Shown: in pieces, positions 52,765-59,989 of the stretch
How the letters are laid out: every line of letters begins with the position of its first letter
Position numbering within the stretch: the stretch's first letter is position 1
Assembly (NCBI RefSeq): GCF_023498005.1
Contig: NZ_CP097289.1
Location: 7,936,001-8,000,000 of the forward strand
Reading direction: 5' to 3'
Origin: Streptomyces durmitorensis
GTDB lineage: Bacteria > Actinomycetota > Actinomycetes > Streptomycetales > Streptomycetaceae
DNA: 64,000 bases
Notes under the pieces: generated by a model
Databases searched by the model: none
The model's input: only the letters and a program-made list of their open reading frames with translations
What the model was told of the DNA's origin: nothing
Position numbers and translations under genes: made by a program

Positions 52765-55122
52765 ATGGGAGAGCGGCCTGGAGCGCCGACTGCGCCCGAA
52801 CTCGTCCTGGAGACCGATACCGGTTCCACCGTGATGAGTCCGAGCCGGGACTATCACGTCGGGCGCGATCCACTGAGCGACATCGTCATCGACGATGCCC
52901 GCGTCTCCTGGCACCACGCCGTCCTCCACGCCGAGCTCGACCACTGGACGATCGAGGACGAGCACAGCACGAACGGCACCTACGCCGACGGGCGGCGCAT
53001 CCACGAGTGGGGCGTCGGACCCGGCAGCGTTCTGCGCTTCGGCAGCGTCGCGGACGGCCCGCGCGCGGTGCTCGTCGGCCGGGCACCACCCCCGCCGGCC
53101 GCTCCCGAGCGCCCGTCCGCCGTCCGCACCCCGTCGGCCACCGGCACCTTCCGGCAGCCCACGACCGTGCGCCCGCTGCCCGCCCGTACCGTCCGCATCG
53201 GCCGCGCCGCCGACAGCGACCTGGTCATCGACGACCTGGTCGTCTCCCGCCGCCACGCCGAACTGCGGGTCTTGGCGGACGGCGCGTACGAGATCGTGGA
53301 CCTCGGCAGCCACAACGGCACCTACCTCAACGGCCAGCCGGTCTCGCGGGCCCCGGTCCTGCCCGGGGACATCGTCGGCGTCGGCCACCGTGCGTACTGT
53401 CTCGTCGGCGACGAGCTGCAGGAGTACGTCGACACGGGCGAGGTGTCGCTCGACGTCCAGGAGCTGACGGTCGCCGTCGACAAGGGCCGCAAGACGCTCC
53501 TCGACAAGATCTCCTTCCCCGTCGGCGAGAAGTGCCTGCTCGCCGTGGTCGGTCCCAGCGGCGCCGGGAAGTCCACCCTCCTCAACGCCCTCACCGGCCT
53601 GCGCCCCGCCGACGACGGCACCGTCCTCTACGACGGCCGCGACCTCTACCGCGACTACGCCGAGCTCCGCCAGCGCATCGGTCTCGTGCCGCAGGACGAC
53701 ATCCTGCACGCGCAGCTCACCGTGCGCCGTGCCCTCGGGTACGCTGCCGAACTGCGCTTCCCCCAGGACACCGAGAAGGCGGAACGCCGGGCCAGGGTCG
53801 ACGAGGTCATCCGTGAGCTCGGCCTGGAGCAGCGCGTCGACCAGCCCATCCACAGCCTCTCCGGCGGACAGCGCAAGCGCGTGAGCGTCGCCCTCGAACT
53901 CCTCACCAAGCCGTCCCTGCTCTTCCTGGACGAGCCGACGTCCGGGCTCGACCCCGGCATGGACCGCTCGGTGATGCACATGCTGCGCGGCCTCGCCGAC
54001 GACGGCCGTACGGTCATCGTCGTCACGCACAGTGTGCTCAGCCTCGACGGCTGCGACCGGCTCCTCGTGCTCGCGGCGGGCGGCAGAATCGCCTACTACG
54101 GTCCGCCGCAGGACGCGCTGCCGTTCTTCGGCTTCGAGGAGTGGCCCGAGGCGTTCGAGGCCTTCGAGGGGGACCGCGACCGGGACTGGGCCGGGGAGTA
54201 CCGGCGCTCGCCTTTCCACCAGCAGTACATCGTCAACGCCTCCGCGCAGCCTTACCTGCCGCAGGGGGCCGCGGCTCCGGCCGCGGGCTACGCGCCGCCG
54301 CCGAAGGCGCAGAGCTGGGGCTCCCAGCTGCGGACGCTGGTGCGGCGGTACGCGGCCGCGCTCGGCGCGGACCGGACGTTCCTCGCGATCATGGTCGCGC
54401 TGCCGTTCGTGATGGGTGCCATGGCCCGCGCGCTGGCCGGGAGCAAACTGACGCAGGAGACGGCGATGAACGCGCTGCTCATCCTGTGCGTCGGCGGAGT
54501 CCTGACCGGCGCGGCCAACGCGGTGCGGGAACTGGTCAAGGAGCGCGTCATCTACCGGCGCGAACGGGCCGTGGGGCTCTCCAGATCGGCGTACCTGATG
54601 TCCAAGGTCGTCGTCCTGGGAACGATCACCGTGCTGCAGGCCGTCGTGCTGACCCTGGTGGCGCTGCTCGGCGTCGATCTCAACGCACCCGGCGGCGAGG
54701 GCGTGCTGCTGCCGCCGCTCGCCGAGATCACCCTGGCGGTGGCCCTCCTCGCGTTCACGGCCATGATGCTGGGGCTCCTGGTCTCGGCCCTGGTGCGCAA
54801 GGAAGAGGTGACGATGCCGCTGCTGGTGCTCCTGGCCATCGTCCAGGTGGTGTTCTGCGGCGCGCTCCTGAAGCTCAACGGAGTGCCCGGCGTCGAGCAG
54901 CTGGCGTGGCTCGTGCCCTCGCGGTGGGCGCTGGGCGCGATGGCGGGGACCATCGGCCTCGGCAGGATCGTGCCCGGTGAGCTGACGGCCGATCCGCTGT
55001 TCCGCCACTCGGCGGGTGTCTGGCTGCTCAACATGGGCATGCTGGTGGCTCTCTGCGTCGTCTTCGGATACGCGGTCGCCAGGCTCCTGCGACGGCACGA
55101 ACCCGCCGTCATGCGGAAGTAG
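52765..55122 (+). CDS. FHA-FHA-ABC transporter (Rv1747-like)
   Basis: 785 residues. Two forkhead-associated domains come first: residues about 12-110 (VGRDPLSDIV, VSWHHAVLH, STNGTYADG) and 143-215 (IGRAADSDLVI, VSRRHAELR, HNGTYLNG), each with the Gly-Arg, Ser and His-Asn residues that hold phosphothreonine. The ATPase has GPSGAGKST at about 263, SLSGGQRKRVS, LLFLDEPTSGLDPG. From about 520 an ABC-2 membrane domain of six helices completes it. In M. tuberculosis, Rv1747 has this plan and is phosphorylated and controlled by PknF next door; here a Ser/Thr kinase lies two genes downstream. Thr residues in the inter-FHA linker (TPSATGTFRQPTTVRP) are candidate phosphosites. Confidence 0.93.
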   Translation: MGERPGAPTAPELVLETDTGSTVMSPSRDYHVGRDPLSDIVIDDARVSWHHAVLHAELDHWTIEDEHSTNGTYADGRRIHEWGVGPGSVLRFGSVADGPRAVLVGRAPPPPAAPERPSAVRTPSATGTFRQPTTVRPLPARTVRIGRAADSDLVIDDLVVSRRHAELRVLADGAYEIVDLGSHNGTYLNGQPVSRAPVLPGDIVGVGHRAYCLVGDELQEYVDTGEVSLDVQELTVAVDKGRKTLLDKISFPVGEKCLLAVVGPSGAGKSTLLNALTGLRPADDGTVLYDGRDLYRDYAELRQRIGLVPQDDILHAQLTVRRALGYAAELRFPQDTEKAERRARVDEVIRELGLEQRVDQPIHSLSGGQRKRVSVALELLTKPSLLFLDEPTSGLDPGMDRSVMHMLRGLADDGRTVIVVTHSVLSLDGCDRLLVLAAGGRIAYYGPPQDALPFFGFEEWPEAFEAFEGDRDRDWAGEYRRSPFHQQYIVNASAQPYLPQGAAAPAAGYAPPPKAQSWGSQLRTLVRRYAAALGADRTFLAIMVALPFVMGAMARALAGSKLTQETAMNALLILCVGGVLTGAANAVRELVKERVIYRRERAVGLSRSAYLMSKVVVLGTITVLQAVVLTLVALLGVDLNAPGGEGVLLPPLAEITLAVALLAFTAMMLGLLVSALVRKEEVTMPLLVLLAIVQVVFCGALLKLNGVPGVEQLAWLVPSRWALGAMAGTIGLGRIVPGELTADPLFRHSAGVWLLNMGMLVALCVVFGYAVARLLRRHEPAVMRK

Positions 55123-55133
55123 GGGCGGACGGG

Positions 55134-56291
55134 ATGACCACCGCCGACTTCCGGCCCACACATGTCGTCCCCCAGGACGGGCTGCCCGCCTGGGAGGCGC
55201 CGGACGTGAACCGCCCGACGACGCCGCTCGACGCGCTGCTGCCCGTGCACCTGGCCGACCGGCTCGGCGACTGGGGCCGGATCGTGTGCGCCAACGGCTG
55301 GTCGGCCTGGATCGACGCCCGCCTCCTGATCGCCGTACCCCGCGACCCTCCGGCAGCGGGCCAGCCCCTGACCCGCACGGCGGATCCCGGCCCGCTCCTC
55401 GCGAGAACGGAGGAGGCGCTGGGCAGCTACCGCCGCGCGACGCAGGACCTGGCGACCGGCGGCACCGACGGAGAGTCCTTCCGCAGCCGGACGCACGGAC
55501 TGCGGGTGGGCATGGTGGTGGACGGCGAGTCGATGTGGCTCTACGACGCGGAACACGAGCGGTGGGTGTACTGCGACGGGACACGCCTGAGCACGTACGC
55601 GGCGGGGGAGCCCCCGAGCGCACAGCCCGCCGCGAACGGGACGGGGCCGGTGAGCGGCGGGGGTGTGGCCTCGGGTGATGCGGTGAGCCCGGAGCCGACG
55701 CGGGTGGTGGAGGCGGATGAGCCGTCCGGCGCTGGGGGGCCGGGGGCGACGCAGGTCGTGCCTGCGGCTGGGGAGGGTGTGGCGCAGGTGGCTTATGGCG
55801 AGGACGGCGCCCGTCGGGTGGCGCCCGTGAGTGAGGTGGGGGCGGTGGGCGGTGGGGGTGTGGGGTCCGGTGGTGTGAGGCAGGCGGATGAGCGGTCCGG
55901 CGCTGGGGGGCCGGGGGCGACGCAGGTCGTGCCTGCGGCTGGGGAGGGTGTGGCGCAGGTGGCTTATGGCGAGGACGGCGCCCGTCGGGTGGCGCCCGTG
56001 AGTGAGGTGGGGTCGGCGAGTGGTCGGGGCGTGGGCTCGGGTGGCGCGGTGAGTCCGGAGGCGACGCGGGTCGTGGGCGCGGCGCACGCGTCACCCCGTG
56101 AAGACAGCGCCCGTCGTGACGCGCCCTTGAGTGGCGCGGCGGAGCCTACGCAAGTGGTTGAAGCCGTCCCCAGTGCGAGTTCCCGCCTCGATCCCGCTTC
56201 CGATCCTGATCCGTACGGCGAAGAAGCCACCCGTCGCATCCCGCCCGTCACGGGCGACCCCGATCCGCCCCTTCGGCCCGGTGACGCCTGA
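55134..56291 (+). CDS. Low-complexity protein with repeated Thr-x-x-Val/Ile sites between the FHA exporter and the kinase
   Basis: 385 residues, family not recognised. Residues 1-150 look folded: LLPVHLADRLGDWGRIVCANGWSAWIDARLL reads as a small domain, and LYDAEHERWVYCDGTRLSTY another. Residues 155-385 are Gly/Ala/Pro/Val-rich with recurring short sites: T9 (PTHVV), T189 (PTRVV), T206 and T263 (ATQVV), T311 (ATRVV), T339 (PTQVV), T366 (ATRRI). Each has Val or Ile at +3, the preference of many FHA domains. A 129-base segment is duplicated inside. It ends in TGATG overlap with the kinase. Likely the kinase substrate and FHA ligand (inference). Confidence 0.72.
   Translation: MTTADFRPTHVVPQDGLPAWEAPDVNRPTTPLDALLPVHLADRLGDWGRIVCANGWSAWIDARLLIAVPRDPPAAGQPLTRTADPGPLLARTEEALGSYRRATQDLATGGTDGESFRSRTHGLRVGMVVDGESMWLYDAEHERWVYCDGTRLSTYAAGEPPSAQPAANGTGPVSGGGVASGDAVSPEPTRVVEADEPSGAGGPGATQVVPAAGEGVAQVAYGEDGARRVAPVSEVGAVGGGGVGSGGVRQADERSGAGGPGATQVVPAAGEGVAQVAYGEDGARRVAPVSEVGSASGRGVGSGGAVSPEATRVVGAAHASPREDSARRDAPLSGAAEPTQVVEAVPSASSRLDPASDPDPYGEEATRRIPPVTGDPDPPLRPGDA
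55712..56011 (+). repeat. In-frame 129-base duplication in the low-complexity protein
   Basis: 55712-55840 and 55883-56011 differ at only one or two bases, 171 bases apart (a multiple of three). Each copy encodes one ATQVV site, so the duplication added a potential phosphosite. Confidence 0.9.
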
Positions 56292-57313
56292 TGGGGACCG
56301 CACCGCGCGACGACGTGTCGGCGAGCGCGAGTCCCCCCTCCGGGCGGCCCTCCGACCTGGTCGGGAGGCAGATCGCGGGCTACCGCGTCGAGCGTGAGAT
56401 CGGGCGCGGCGGCATGGCCGTCGTCTATCGCGCCAAGGATCTGCGGCTCGGCCGGACCGTCGCCCTCAAGCTGCTCGCCCCCGAGCTCGCACGCAACGAC
56501 ACGTTCCGGCAGCGCTTCACGCACGAGTCGCGCGTGGCCGCCGCGATCGAGCACCCGCACATCGTGCCGGTCTTCGAGGCGGGCGAGACGGACGGTCTGC
56601 TCTACATCGCCATGCGGTACGTTCCCGGGCTCGACCTGCGCCACCTGCTCGACGAATCGGGCCCGCTCCCCGTCGGAGCCGCCCTCCGCATCGCCGCGCA
56701 GGTCGCGTCCGCGCTCGACGCGGCCCACGACCACGGCCTGGTCCACCGCGACGTCAAGCCCGGCAACATCCTCGTGGCCAAGGGCACGGACAGCGACCAC
56801 CCTGAGCACGTCTACCTCACGGACTTCGGCCTGACGAAGAAGTCCCTTTCGCTGACCGGTTTCACCACCGTCGGGCAGTTCGTCGGCACCCTCGACTACG
56901 TGGCGCCGGAGCAGATCTCGGGCCGTCCCGTGGACGGCAGATGCGACGTCTACAGCCTGGCCTGCGTCGTCCACGAGACCATGTCCGGCGGCCCGCCCTT
57001 CCAGCGCGACGACGACATGGCCCTGCTCTGGGCCCACCAGTACGACCAGCCGCCCCGCCTGACCGAGAAGCGCCCCGAGGTCCCCGCGGCGCTCGACGGC
57101 GTCCTCGCGAAGGCCCTGGCCAAGAGCCCGGACGACCGGTACGGCTCCTGCCTGGAGTTCGCGGCCGCACTGCGGGCAGCGGTCACCGGAAGCGCGGAGG
57201 GGCACCCCCCGACACAGGTGGACGTCCACGTCGTGGGCGCCCGGCAGGACCCGGGAGCGCCCCCGGAGCCGCCGGACTGGGCACGGCCCGTCTTCCGGCG
57301 GCTGCCCGGCTAA
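56291..57313 (+). CDS. Ser/Thr protein kinase (Hanks type) without membrane segment
   Basis: 340 residues. Glycine loop GRGGMAVVYRA, ATP-binding Lys60 (ALKLL), HRDVKPGN (Asp154), TDFGLTKK, and APEQISG in the P+1 region are all intact, with the activation loop SLTGFTTVGQFVGTLDY. There is no transmembrane helix or PASTA domain after residue 300; the protein ends with a short Pro-rich tail, so it is cytosolic or bound to a partner. A PTQVDVHVV stretch near residue 313 is a possible autophosphorylation site. TGATG coupling to the upstream gene. Confidence 0.95.
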   Translation: MGTAPRDDVSASASPPSGRPSDLVGRQIAGYRVEREIGRGGMAVVYRAKDLRLGRTVALKLLAPELARNDTFRQRFTHESRVAAAIEHPHIVPVFEAGETDGLLYIAMRYVPGLDLRHLLDESGPLPVGAALRIAAQVASALDAAHDHGLVHRDVKPGNILVAKGTDSDHPEHVYLTDFGLTKKSLSLTGFTTVGQFVGTLDYVAPEQISGRPVDGRCDVYSLACVVHETMSGGPPFQRDDDMALLWAHQYDQPPRLTEKRPEVPAALDGVLAKALAKSPDDRYGSCLEFAAALRAAVTGSAEGHPPTQVDVHVVGARQDPGAPPEPPDWARPVFRRLPG

Positions 57314-58632
57314 GGTCTCTCGGGCTGTGACGGCCCGTCGTCCGCCACGTCGCCGCGCCGGTGGACCCGCCGCGCGAGCAGGCCGCCGATGAACCCGGTG
57401 ACCAGGCCCCAGGCCACGGCGAGGATCAGCGCGGTACCCAGCCGCGGATCCAGCTTCACCAGGCCGGACAGGCCGCCGCCGAGATCCCCGATGCCCAGGA
57501 GCGACAGGCCGTAGTGGGCGGAGAGGCGGGCGAGCAGACACACGGCGAGCACGGTGAGGGCCAGCGCCACCGCCATGTGCACGGCGTGCTGCCAGGCCCG
57601 CATCCGGGCGGGCGAGCGCGCGGCCATGAGGAACGCGGCGCCCAGGACCATGACCGCCGCGACGACAAGGAGCCACCACACCCGGCCGTCGTACTCGGAG
57701 AGCGTCCGCAGACTGAGCGTGGAGTCGTCCGGAGTACGCAGGACGTCGTCCAGGACACGCGGCATGGGCAGTCCGAACGGCCCGTCCACGCGGCCTTCCC
57801 AGGACGCGCCGAGCCCCAGGGTGAACGCGAGCCAGACGAGATTGGGCAGCCCCAGCAGCAGCACCGCGAGCGTCTCGGCGGCATGCCCCTTGGTCGCCGC
57901 CACGACCAGGCCGATGACCAGCCCCAGGGCGACGTACGCGAGCAGCAGGACCACCATGGCGTAGGCAGCCGGACGCACCGACTCCTGGAACCGCACCAGG
58001 CGGCCGGGGAGCGGGGCCCCGCGCGAGACCAGCAGCGCCACGGCGAGGACGCCCACCAGCCACAGCAGCCCGAACACGAGGGTCAGCGGCACATCGGTCT
58101 CGAAGCCGACCTTGGGCGATCCCGCGCCCAGCAGGTCACCGACGTCGGCCGCGTCCCCCTCCCCGAGCGAGATCGTGAACCGGTGGCGGGCCAGCAGGCC
58201 AAGGCCGATGAGGAGCAGGATCCAGAGCACCGCGAACCGGGCGGCCCAGCCGACGAGTTCCTTCGCGTCGGCGACGGCCCGGTGCCGCAGCGGCCTGAGG
58301 AATCCGGCACCGACCACCAGAGCTCCGGCGAGGGTGACCGAGAGGGGGAGCACGGAGAGCCCCGCGTTCGTCTCGGCGATGGCCCCGGCGTCGCCGGAGA
58401 GTCCGACGGAGCCGCCGACCGCCATCACCACGACGGCCGCGACGACGCTGGGGAACGCGCCGTCCGGCAGGTCCGCCGCCCCGGCGGCCCACAGGCCGAG
58501 CGCGGCGACGACGGCCATGGCCACCAGCGCGGCGAGCACGGTGACCAAGGCGTGGGGCCAGCCGTGGGGGGCCCGCCGGCTCTGCTGGGCGCGTTGCGCT
58601 CCTGCCCGCTCAGGCGGTGTCTGGTGGCTCAC
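57310..58632 (-). CDS. Streptophobe-type integral membrane protein
   Basis: 440 residues from GTG 58632. About ten hydrophobic segments, starting LVTVLAALVAMAVVAALGLWAAG. Residues GLPNLVWLAFTLGLGASWEGRVDGPFGLPMPRVLDDVLR form the most conserved-looking loop of the streptomycete streptophobe family. Function unknown. Its 3' end overlaps the kinase gene by four bases on the opposite strand, with no terminator between them. Confidence 0.8.
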   Translation of the reverse strand: MSHQTPPERAGAQRAQQSRRAPHGWPHALVTVLAALVAMAVVAALGLWAAGAADLPDGAFPSVVAAVVVMAVGGSVGLSGDAGAIAETNAGLSVLPLSVTLAGALVVGAGFLRPLRHRAVADAKELVGWAARFAVLWILLLIGLGLLARHRFTISLGEGDAADVGDLLGAGSPKVGFETDVPLTLVFGLLWLVGVLAVALLVSRGAPLPGRLVRFQESVRPAAYAMVVLLLAYVALGLVIGLVVAATKGHAAETLAVLLLGLPNLVWLAFTLGLGASWEGRVDGPFGLPMPRVLDDVLRTPDDSTLSLRTLSEYDGRVWWLLVVAAVMVLGAAFLMAARSPARMRAWQHAVHMAVALALTVLAVCLLARLSAHYGLSLLGIGDLGGGLSGLVKLDPRLGTALILAVAWGLVTGFIGGLLARRVHRRGDVADDGPSQPERP

Positions 58633-58813
58633 GTTGTCACGCTAAGCAGCGCCGGGGCCGCCCGCCCGTCGGGAGGGCCGACCGCGTCGGCTTGCGGGTC
58701 CCCGGGAGCCGGGACAGACAATAGGCGCGTAACGGATTTATGAGTGCGGAGCGGTCGAAAGGTGACCGGATACGCGTGCCGCAGCAGGCCCCCTACCCAG
58801 GGAAGAAGTGTTC

Positions 58814-59989
58814 GTGAGCGTCGAACCGCCGTCGTCAGGACGCCCCACAGGACCCCCGTCAGGCCCGCTCTCGGGCCCTTCGCAGCCGGGGGAGACCCAG
58901 ACAGGTTCGACGCCACCGCCCAGCGGGGACCGGCCGTCGCCGCCCCCGGGCGGTCCGCCGAGCGGCCCTCCGGGTGACACTCCGGGCGGCCCTCCCGGCG
59001 GCGCGAGCCCGGAGGAGGGTCCCGGCGGGGGCCCGGAGCCGGACCGCCCCTGGTGGAGGTCGGCGCCGCGCGTGGCGGCGATCTCCCTCGTGATCGTGGC
59101 CGCGGTCGTGCTGACCGTCGTACTCACGCGGCCCGACAGCTCGGACGGCACCAAGGACGCCGGCGGCGAGGTCATCCTCCAGCCCGCGGCGAAGTCGGGC
59201 CCCGACCCCTTCACCGAGTCGACGGCACGGGACGACGCCACGCCCGCGTCACCGAGCGCGCTGCCGAGCTCATCGGCATCGGCCAATGTGACGCGCGGCG
59301 TCGACGGCTCCGCCCCCGGCCTCTACGGCGGGACGCGGAAGGTCGGAAGCTGCGACGTGGAGCAGCAGGTCACCGCCCTCAAGAAGGACCCGGCGAAGAA
59401 CAAGGCGTTCGCGTCGGTCCTCGACATCGACGCGGCAGCCGTCCCCGCCTACCTGCGGGCGCTCACGCCCGTGCAACTGCGCATGGACACGCGCGTCACC
59501 AACCACGGCTACCGCGACGGCGCCCCCACCTCCTACCAGGCCGTCCTCCAGGCGGGCACCGCCGTGCTCGTCGACGACCGTGGTGTGCCGCGCGTGCGCT
59601 GCGCCTGCGGAAACCCGCTGCTGCCGCCCGTCGCGCAGAAGACCCCGAAGCGGACGGGCGACGCGTGGCCCGGATACCAGTCGTCGAACGTCGTGGTCGT
59701 GGCGCCCGCCGTCCAGGTCGTGAACGTGTTCGTCATGTACGACCCGAAGAGCGGCGACTGGTTCGAACGTGACAAGGGCGACACGGGCGCCGGCGACACG
59801 AAGACCGAACCGCCGGTGACGGAGCCGTCTCCGTCGGCCTCCACGTCCTCCTCCTCGTCCCCGCCCCCGTCATCCGGCGAGCCCTCCTCGCCGCCTGCCT
59901 CGTCCGTGCCGCAGACACCCTCCTCGCAACAGGAGCAGCCGCCCACCTCGCAGTCCGCGCAACCGCCGTCGTCACCGGTGGCAGATTGA
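58814..59989 (+). CDS. Proline-rich membrane-anchored extracytoplasmic protein (DUF6777-like)
   Basis: 391 residues from GTG 58814, with AGGGAAG upstream. Residues 1-75 are a Gly/Pro/Ser-rich cytoplasmic tail. One helix (APRVAAISLVIVAAVVLTVVLT, about 83-102) anchors an outer domain (about 115-320: GSCDVEQQVTALKKDPAKNKAFASVL, PAYLRALTPVQLRMDTRVTNHGYRDGAPTSYQAVLQAGTAVLVDD, RVRCACGNPL) with three cysteines; it ends in a Ser/Pro/Gln tail of about 70 residues that may span or attach to the wall. The outer block matches the DUF6777-type proteins of streptomycetes. Role unknown. Confidence 0.75.
   Translation: MSVEPPSSGRPTGPPSGPLSGPSQPGETQTGSTPPPSGDRPSPPPGGPPSGPPGDTPGGPPGGASPEEGPGGGPEPDRPWWRSAPRVAAISLVIVAAVVLTVVLTRPDSSDGTKDAGGEVILQPAAKSGPDPFTESTARDDATPASPSALPSSSASANVTRGVDGSAPGLYGGTRKVGSCDVEQQVTALKKDPAKNKAFASVLDIDAAAVPAYLRALTPVQLRMDTRVTNHGYRDGAPTSYQAVLQAGTAVLVDDRGVPRVRCACGNPLLPPVAQKTPKRTGDAWPGYQSSNVVVVAPAVQVVNVFVMYDPKSGDWFERDKGDTGAGDTKTEPPVTEPSPSASTSSSSSPPPSSGEPSSPPASSVPQTPSSQQEQPPTSQSAQPPSSPVAD

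Follow-up and report, generated by a model that had tools for sequence, protein, structure and literature searches.

Within the window analysed here, a stretch of 64,000 nucleotides from Streptomyces durmitorensis (contig NZ_CP097289.1, positions 7,936,001 to 8,000,000, part of a genome of 9.86 Mb in two contigs), three genes follow one another on the forward strand: a double-FHA ABC exporter of Rv1747 type, a middle protein without a named family, which is a candidate phospho-adaptor, and a Ser/Thr kinase (Table 1). As an earlier reading of this DNA made from its letters alone (the sequence-only reading) had proposed, the genes are consecutive and tightly spaced: 11 nucleotides (nt) separate the exporter stop from the ATG of the middle gene, and the middle-protein stop overlaps the kinase ATG by one base. 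Judged from their sequences, the exporter, the middle protein and the kinase together probably constitute a phosphorylation switch in which the number of tags changes in evolution. New in this analysis are the conserved domain and the tail motif of the middle protein, the variable copy number of that motif, the motifs of the kinase tail and the co-occurrence with the exporter; no paper on this operon or on the middle protein was found in a literature search conducted mostly without subscription texts and supplements.

Table 1. Features of the exporter, middle-protein and kinase genes (positions in the window; aa, amino acids; pLDDT, predicted local distance difference test score of the AlphaFold2 models)
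Feature	Position	Strand	Basis or remark
Double-FHA ABC exporter, 785 aa, Rv1747 type	52765..55122	+	Pfam FHA (two stretches), ABC_tran, ABC2_membrane
FHA1, aa 13-105, with R34, S48, N70	52801..53079	+	AlphaFold2 strands, invariant columns, match to 6ccd
FHA1-FHA2 linker, about aa 106-133, holds TGTFRQPT	53080..53163	+	low pLDDT at 108-130
FHA2, aa 134-214, with R147, S161, N184	53164..53406	+	profile match to 6cah
Middle protein, 385 aa, candidate phospho-adaptor, without named family	55134..56291	+	
Conserved N-terminal domain, aa 1-160, probably SH3b-like, includes T9	55134..55613	+	model of low confidence; distant homologues match Pfam SH3_3/SH3_4
Low-complexity tail, aa 161-385, mostly low pLDDT	55614..56288	+	degenerate repeats D1-D3
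T189, TRVV	55698..55700	+	
Tandem duplication, two copies of 171 nt (57 aa)	55704..56044	+	copies 55704-55873 / 55875-56044
T206, TQVV, repeat copy 1	55749..55751	+	
T263, TQVV, repeat copy 2	55920..55922	+	
T311, TRVV	56064..56066	+	
T339, TQVV	56148..56150	+	
T366, TRRI, near C-terminus	56229..56231	+	
Ser/Thr kinase, 340 aa	56291..57313	+	Pkinase E 9.6e-46
Kinase T308 in GHPPTQVD, resembles middle-protein motif	57212..57214	+	
Kinase C-terminal motif WARPVF, aa 330-335	57278..57295	+	WAxP[VM][FY] in 62 of 68 distinct tails

Conservation of the three-gene unit

The exporter, the middle gene and the kinase form a conserved unit. A same-strand exporter match stands beside the middle gene in 84 of 87 locus rows (in L011 it is only an 80-residue piece) and a same-strand kinase match is found in 78 of them, in a set where some genomes appear twice and two rows, L082 and L083, are distant homologues at 32-35% identity. 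These two rows lack both partners; the exporter is also missing from L076 (genome G049), and the kinase from the contig ends L018 and L122 and from genomes G034, G084, G042 and G106 (two rows). Among 121 genomes of the genus, the middle protein occurs in 65 and the exporter orthologue, defined by a best E value below 1e-40, in 68, so that 64 genomes hold both, one the middle protein only, four the exporter only and 52 neither (Fisher 3e-28; a weak middle-protein hit in G103 was dropped), an association that is weakened as support by the fact that linked genes are lost together anyway. Two of the exporter-only genomes, G005 and G119, look decayed, and in the other two, G017 and G099, the exporter runs to the contig end. 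An order-wide sample of 119 genomes gave matches to the middle domain (E up to 0.001) in 68, the hits in G139 and G196 being weak or fragmentary; three of the 68 belong to another family, and in the three loci of that family the order of exporter, middle gene and kinase is kept. Adjacency is thus frequent, yet the exporter, the kinase, or the middle protein along with the kinase are lost in some genomes, which indicates that the genes usually move together, though the unit is not an obligatory one. Genes in several of these loci were called with a crude procedure, and their starts may be misplaced. A search of 72,556 plasmid records matched one, a 2.8-Mb Streptomyces replicon.

The exporter and the middle protein

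By architecture, FHA likeness and pocket residues the exporter is a member of the double-FHA ABC exporter kind, an assignment by these features and not a claim of one-to-one orthology with Rv1747. Its assignment to the Rv1747 type in the sequence-only reading is borne out, as it combines two FHA domains with ABC_tran and ABC2_membrane and both FHA domains match those of Rv1747 by profile and by structure. When a profile of 27 exporter orthologues was compared with the PDB, the best match overall was Rv1747 FHA-2 (6cah), which covers FHA2 (E 1.4e-17), and the best match covering FHA1 was Rv1747 FHA-1 (6ccd; E 5.4e-10). The same two structures ranked first (6ccd) and second (6cah) when the AlphaFold2 model of the exporter N-terminus (mean pLDDT 73.6) was searched with Foldseek. 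R34, S48 and N70 of FHA1 and R147, S161 and N184 of FHA2 are invariant among the 27 orthologues, and we take these Arg, Ser and Asn residues to be the canonical contacts of the phosphothreonine pocket. In the linker motif TGTFRQPT of the same orthologues T126 is invariant and T133 is conserved in at least 90%. Linkers of 71 distinct orthologues (two more could not be parsed) span 61-160 residues, with a median of 66 and 67 in the window exporter, by a measure that takes in the end of FHA1; short linkers are therefore usual, not universal.

The same genome holds a second double-FHA ABC exporter (L075, G000:C1:7265000-7275000; an 881-aa frame ending at L075 5996), with a long Gln/Pro-rich linker between FHA1 and FHA2, which may be the better counterpart of Rv1747. 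This longer exporter was read in 10 genomes, where its open frames have 877-947 aa and its linkers 136-200; none of these 10 linkers contains TxV[VI] or T[QR]x[VI], and all share PTTF. An FHA-region match at E up to 1e-25 was obtained in 120 of the 121 genus genomes.

The middle protein is probably a soluble adaptor that is built of an SH3b-like domain, itself a probable assignment, and a low-complexity, probably disordered tail. The invariant columns of 53 aligned sequences all fall within residues 6-161. The AlphaFold2 model (mean pLDDT 46.9) places strands at 38-61, helices at 86-119 and a second beta part at 127-156, with low confidence elsewhere; since parts of the conserved domain are also modelled with low confidence, the low pLDDT of the tail argues only weakly for disorder. 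No Pfam or NCBIfam model, those of SH3 included, matched the window protein at E up to 0.1. The modelled domain is probably SH3b-like in view of four distant homologues that match a Pfam SH3 model; L015 does so above both cut-offs, L083 misses by 0.1 bit, and L082 and L014 (3446-4192) stay well below. A search of solved structures gave two matches with a best E of 0.043, which were not accepted as relatives. At E up to 0.001 the family comprises 725 database proteins; among the best 120, the named ones are hypothetical or uncharacterized, one carries a UniRef DUF2382 label and none gives a function, and the 14 named relatives that were fetched come from Streptomyces (12) and Acidimicrobiia metagenome bins (2). 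The distant homologues in L082 (4009-4434) and L083 (4116-4631) lie beside another uncharacterised protein gene, and L083 also has an adjoining Ser/Thr kinase gene of a different kind.

Tail motifs and their number across relatives

Seven Thr-x-x-Val/Ile sites had been proposed as an FHA-type array, and all seven are present (T9 in THVV, T189, T206, T263, T311, T339 and T366), together with an eighth, T170 (TGPV), which had been omitted. The tail part of the array is well founded, the motif being strongly enriched there; T9 was rejected as a member, as it lies in the conserved-domain signature PTH and not in the tail. Its position is Thr in 65 of 73 distinct middle proteins, Ser in six and Gly in one, and was not found in one; the signature is internal in two Acidimicrobiia proteins (THTT/THET) and reads THVT in the loci of the other family. 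In composition shuffles of the window tail T..[VI] is expected 1.10 times and T[QRH]V[VI] 0.02 times, and none of 5000 shuffles reached the observed counts of 7 and 5. The tail consensus in the family is P-E-P-T-[QR]-V-V, and in 78 non-redundant tails (of 121 sequences, the window included) T[QRH]V[VI] was observed 191 times vs 0.5 after shuffling, an enrichment of about 350-fold. S..[VI] and T with V/I at +1, +4 and +5 were depleted in these tails, and T with V/I at +2 was enriched (231 vs 58.5 shuffled) because the motif has V at +2. As these tails were drawn from the best 120 of the 725 homologues, which favour window-like tails, they overstate the typical copy number. At the DNA level, ACSCRSGTSGTS, the GC3 spelling (G or C at third codon positions) of T[QRH]VV, occurs 177 times on both strands of the 9.86-Mb genome, vs 89 for a reversed control pattern. 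Four matches fall in a 378-bp stretch of the middle gene and three more are scattered elsewhere in the window; among the first 100 of the 177 (to about 5.33 Mb of C1), the closest same-strand pair is 864 bp apart.

The in-frame duplication claimed for the tail is real and tandem, with a unit of 171 nt; the 129 nt given for it fit only the near-identical 43-codon core. The two copies are identical at 158 of 171 nt, and further degenerate copies are present in the tail (families D2 and D3). One database protein, P0001, equals the window middle protein minus exactly one 57-aa unit, which suggests either that copy number is unstable between strains or that the repeat collapsed in a draft assembly. 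In 30 genes with at least two motifs (102 copies), the T and V codons, where they differ, differ mainly synonymously, T being fixed by the motif definition and V at +2/+3 almost fixed. The share of synonymous differences is 0.55 for P at -1, which is outside the motif definition, vs 0.06-0.29 at 13 flanking positions (-9 to -4 and +4 to +10), in comparisons whose pairs are non-independent and whose flank windows run into neighbouring motifs at a spacing of 11. That the peptide is kept while the DNA diverges argues for selection on the short peptide, beyond fresh duplication.

The number of sites is best judged from the 73 distinct complete middle proteins, which are a fairer sample of copy number than the 78 tails. 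Strict tail sites number 0 in 14 of them, 1 in 29, 2 in 15, 3 in 5, 4 in 3, 5 in 4, 8 in 1 and 9 in 2, and by a looser TxxV/I/L count some proteins reach 10. A common short form has about 181 aa and ends with GHAPTQVVTPDGP or similar, and many tails scored 0 retain near-variants such as PTRLA and PTRFT. On a tree of 80 domains, midpoint-rooted and with bootstrap not settled, the state of at least three sites (16 rows) requires 8 changes, of which at least 6 are forced by well-supported branches. Multivalency, on which the sequence-only reading had built an adaptor that gathers exporters, did not emerge as a conserved trait, since 43 of the 73 proteins have 0 or 1 strict site and the three loci of the other family have none. 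Tails with one site are the most frequent, and arrays recur as states particular to certain lineages, which suggests that a multivalent adaptor is a possible local elaboration and not a conserved function; in this strain, to judge from the tail sequence, exporters may be gathered multivalently.

The kinase tail carries two motifs of its own, T308 and WAxPVF, both overlooked in the sequence-only reading. Among 68 distinct kinase tails T.VD occurs in 25 (shuffle mean 0.46), PT[QRE]V in 26 and a C-terminal WAxP[VM][FY] in 62, and kinases of the loci in the other family have TRVA/TQVA and WAMPVF. A GH[AP]PT[QE]V-like motif is common to the tails of kinase and adaptor, and its sequence may represent an FHA ligand shared by both proteins or a site that the kinase recognises in both; the WAxPVF end may serve in docking, perhaps to the SH3b-like domain. 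A trade-off between sites in the two tails was considered and discarded, as no association was found (Fisher p 0.42): a kinase site is present in 11 of 18 loci without adaptor sites vs 26 of 56 with them, and 7 of 74 have neither.

Downstream of the kinase, the operon is flanked by a streptophobe-family membrane protein gene (57310-58632, minus strand) and a DUF6777 protein gene (58808-59989, plus strand), which adjoin it again in many relatives. DUF6777 genes are also found near SH3-bearing proteins in the Acidimicrobiia locus L014.

A candidate phosphorylation switch and its alternatives

The reading of the tail sites as FHA ligands draws most strongly on a comparison with Mycobacterium tuberculosis. 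In a study of Rv2623, the protein phosphorylated at T237 binds FHA-I of Rv1747 and not FHA II, the motif being pTRVV, and the T237A substitution weakens the interaction without abolishing it (PMC5549992). The window tail contains TRVV twice and TQVV three times, TRVV being the very sequence of the T237 ligand. Rv2623 is a separate protein with a pT-R-V-V ligand for an FHA domain of Rv1747, as the middle protein would by sequence be for the window exporter; it is described there as a folded USP (universal stress protein) with one mapped site (PMC5549992), unlike the middle protein with its probably SH3b-like carrier, low-complexity tail, variable number of sites and gene beside the exporter. 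The Rv1747/PknF pair has the same exporter architecture and an adjoining Ser/Thr kinase gene; here, however, the kinase gene is downstream, the middle gene lies in between, and TxxV/TxxD sites occur on a third protein and in the tail of the kinase. In Fha-PpkA control of type VI secretion, a kinase, a phospho-Thr partner (TssL) and an FHA protein that binds the phosphothreonine of this partner are likewise reported to control a secretion machine, though both the machine and the protein families are other ones (PMC3953482).

It is fairly probable on sequence grounds that the locus is a Streptomyces counterpart of the PknF/Rv1747 module of kinase and FHA exporter, with the FHA ligands placed in trans on separate proteins. 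In such a module the adjacent kinase, or another Ser/Thr kinase, would phosphorylate the threonines of the adaptor tail, and the adjacent kinase would also phosphorylate those of its own tail. The resulting pT-[QR]-V-V would dock on FHA1 and/or FHA2 of the exporter, as identity with the Rv2623 motif and the intact pockets suggest. Docking would then set exporter activity and draw the kinase near, aided by T308-Q-V-D and the WAxPVF tail of the kinase. Where the tail has expanded to an array, as it has here and independently in several other lineages, avidity would rise and exporters might be clustered. A stronger form of the proposal is a phospho-scaffold of tunable valency, in which the adaptor tail (1 to about 10 pT[QR]VV) and the kinase pTQVD would form a trans network of FHA ligands that clusters or condenses double-FHA exporters, and lineages would reset its threshold by duplicating tail units; this we regard as tentative and rather doubtful.

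Several observations weigh against the module as proposed. The strict tail motif is lacking in 14 of the 73 proteins and in all three loci from the other family. When single sequences and not the profile were searched, FHA2 matched GarA (6.8e-15) better than 6cah (2.7e-11) and FHA1 matched ArnA (7.6e-5) better than 6ccd (1.5e-4). In four genomes exporter and adaptor are kept without the kinase, adaptor and kinase are kept where the exporter is gone (G049) or reduced to a piece (L011), and G196 has an intact exporter with fragments of the middle protein and kinase. In addition, since a longer double-FHA exporter is present in many genomes, it could itself be the partner of the middle protein.

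This last point belongs to a wider alternative, in which the sites are kinase substrates that bind other FHA proteins, such as a GarA-type protein or the longer double-FHA exporter, or else take up phosphate as a sink or timer of the kinase and do not regulate the window exporter. It would fit the FHA-region match (E up to 1e-25) in 51 of the 52 genomes with neither exporter orthologue nor middle protein, the ten longer-exporter genes read and the survival of adaptor and kinase beyond the exporter in G049 and L011; the near-complete co-occurrence and adjacency with the window-type exporter, and the four genomes that dispense with the kinase, make it unlikely. Control of the exporter in cis through its own linker (T126/T133), as reported for Rv1747, would leave the middle protein as a partner of SH3b type, with motifs that work otherwise than through FHA binding. 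The conserved T126 and T133, the confinement of invariant columns in the middle protein to the first 161 residues and the orthologues devoid of tail sites are in line with it. Conservation near T133 may, however, be structural, because AlphaFold2 puts 134-137 in the strand that starts FHA2, and the tail motif is enriched, conserved and equal to a known ligand sequence of Rv1747 FHA, so that we consider cis control even less likely.

A different challenge concerns the array and not the partner: a single phosphothreonine docking site would suffice, and the extra copies, produced by slippage or tandem duplication in GC-rich low-complexity DNA, would be without function. This is a real possibility, though one that we doubt somewhat. 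Proteins with a single site are the most numerous (29 of 73), copy number changes readily, the 171-nt copies of the window differ little, and P0001 is identical except for the missing unit. On the other side, array copies keep PT[QR]VV amid changing flanks, with P at -1 well above them in synonymous share, though P at -3 (0.19) and E at -2 (0.33) barely stand out, and the state of at least three sites needs the 8 changes on the tree mentioned above, at least 6 of them forced by supported branches.

If the trans module is correct, its interest lies in comparison with Rv1747. A review describes phosphorylation-driven condensation, or phase separation, of the FHA region of Rv1747 (residues 1-310), so that such behaviour has been reported for a bacterial ABC transporter (PMC9312465); the Streptomyces relative adds candidate sites on a separate protein. 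The natural series of 0 to 9 strict sites offers material for the question how valency sets transporter clustering, outside a pathogen, and a functional hypothesis is supplied for a family of 725 database hits.

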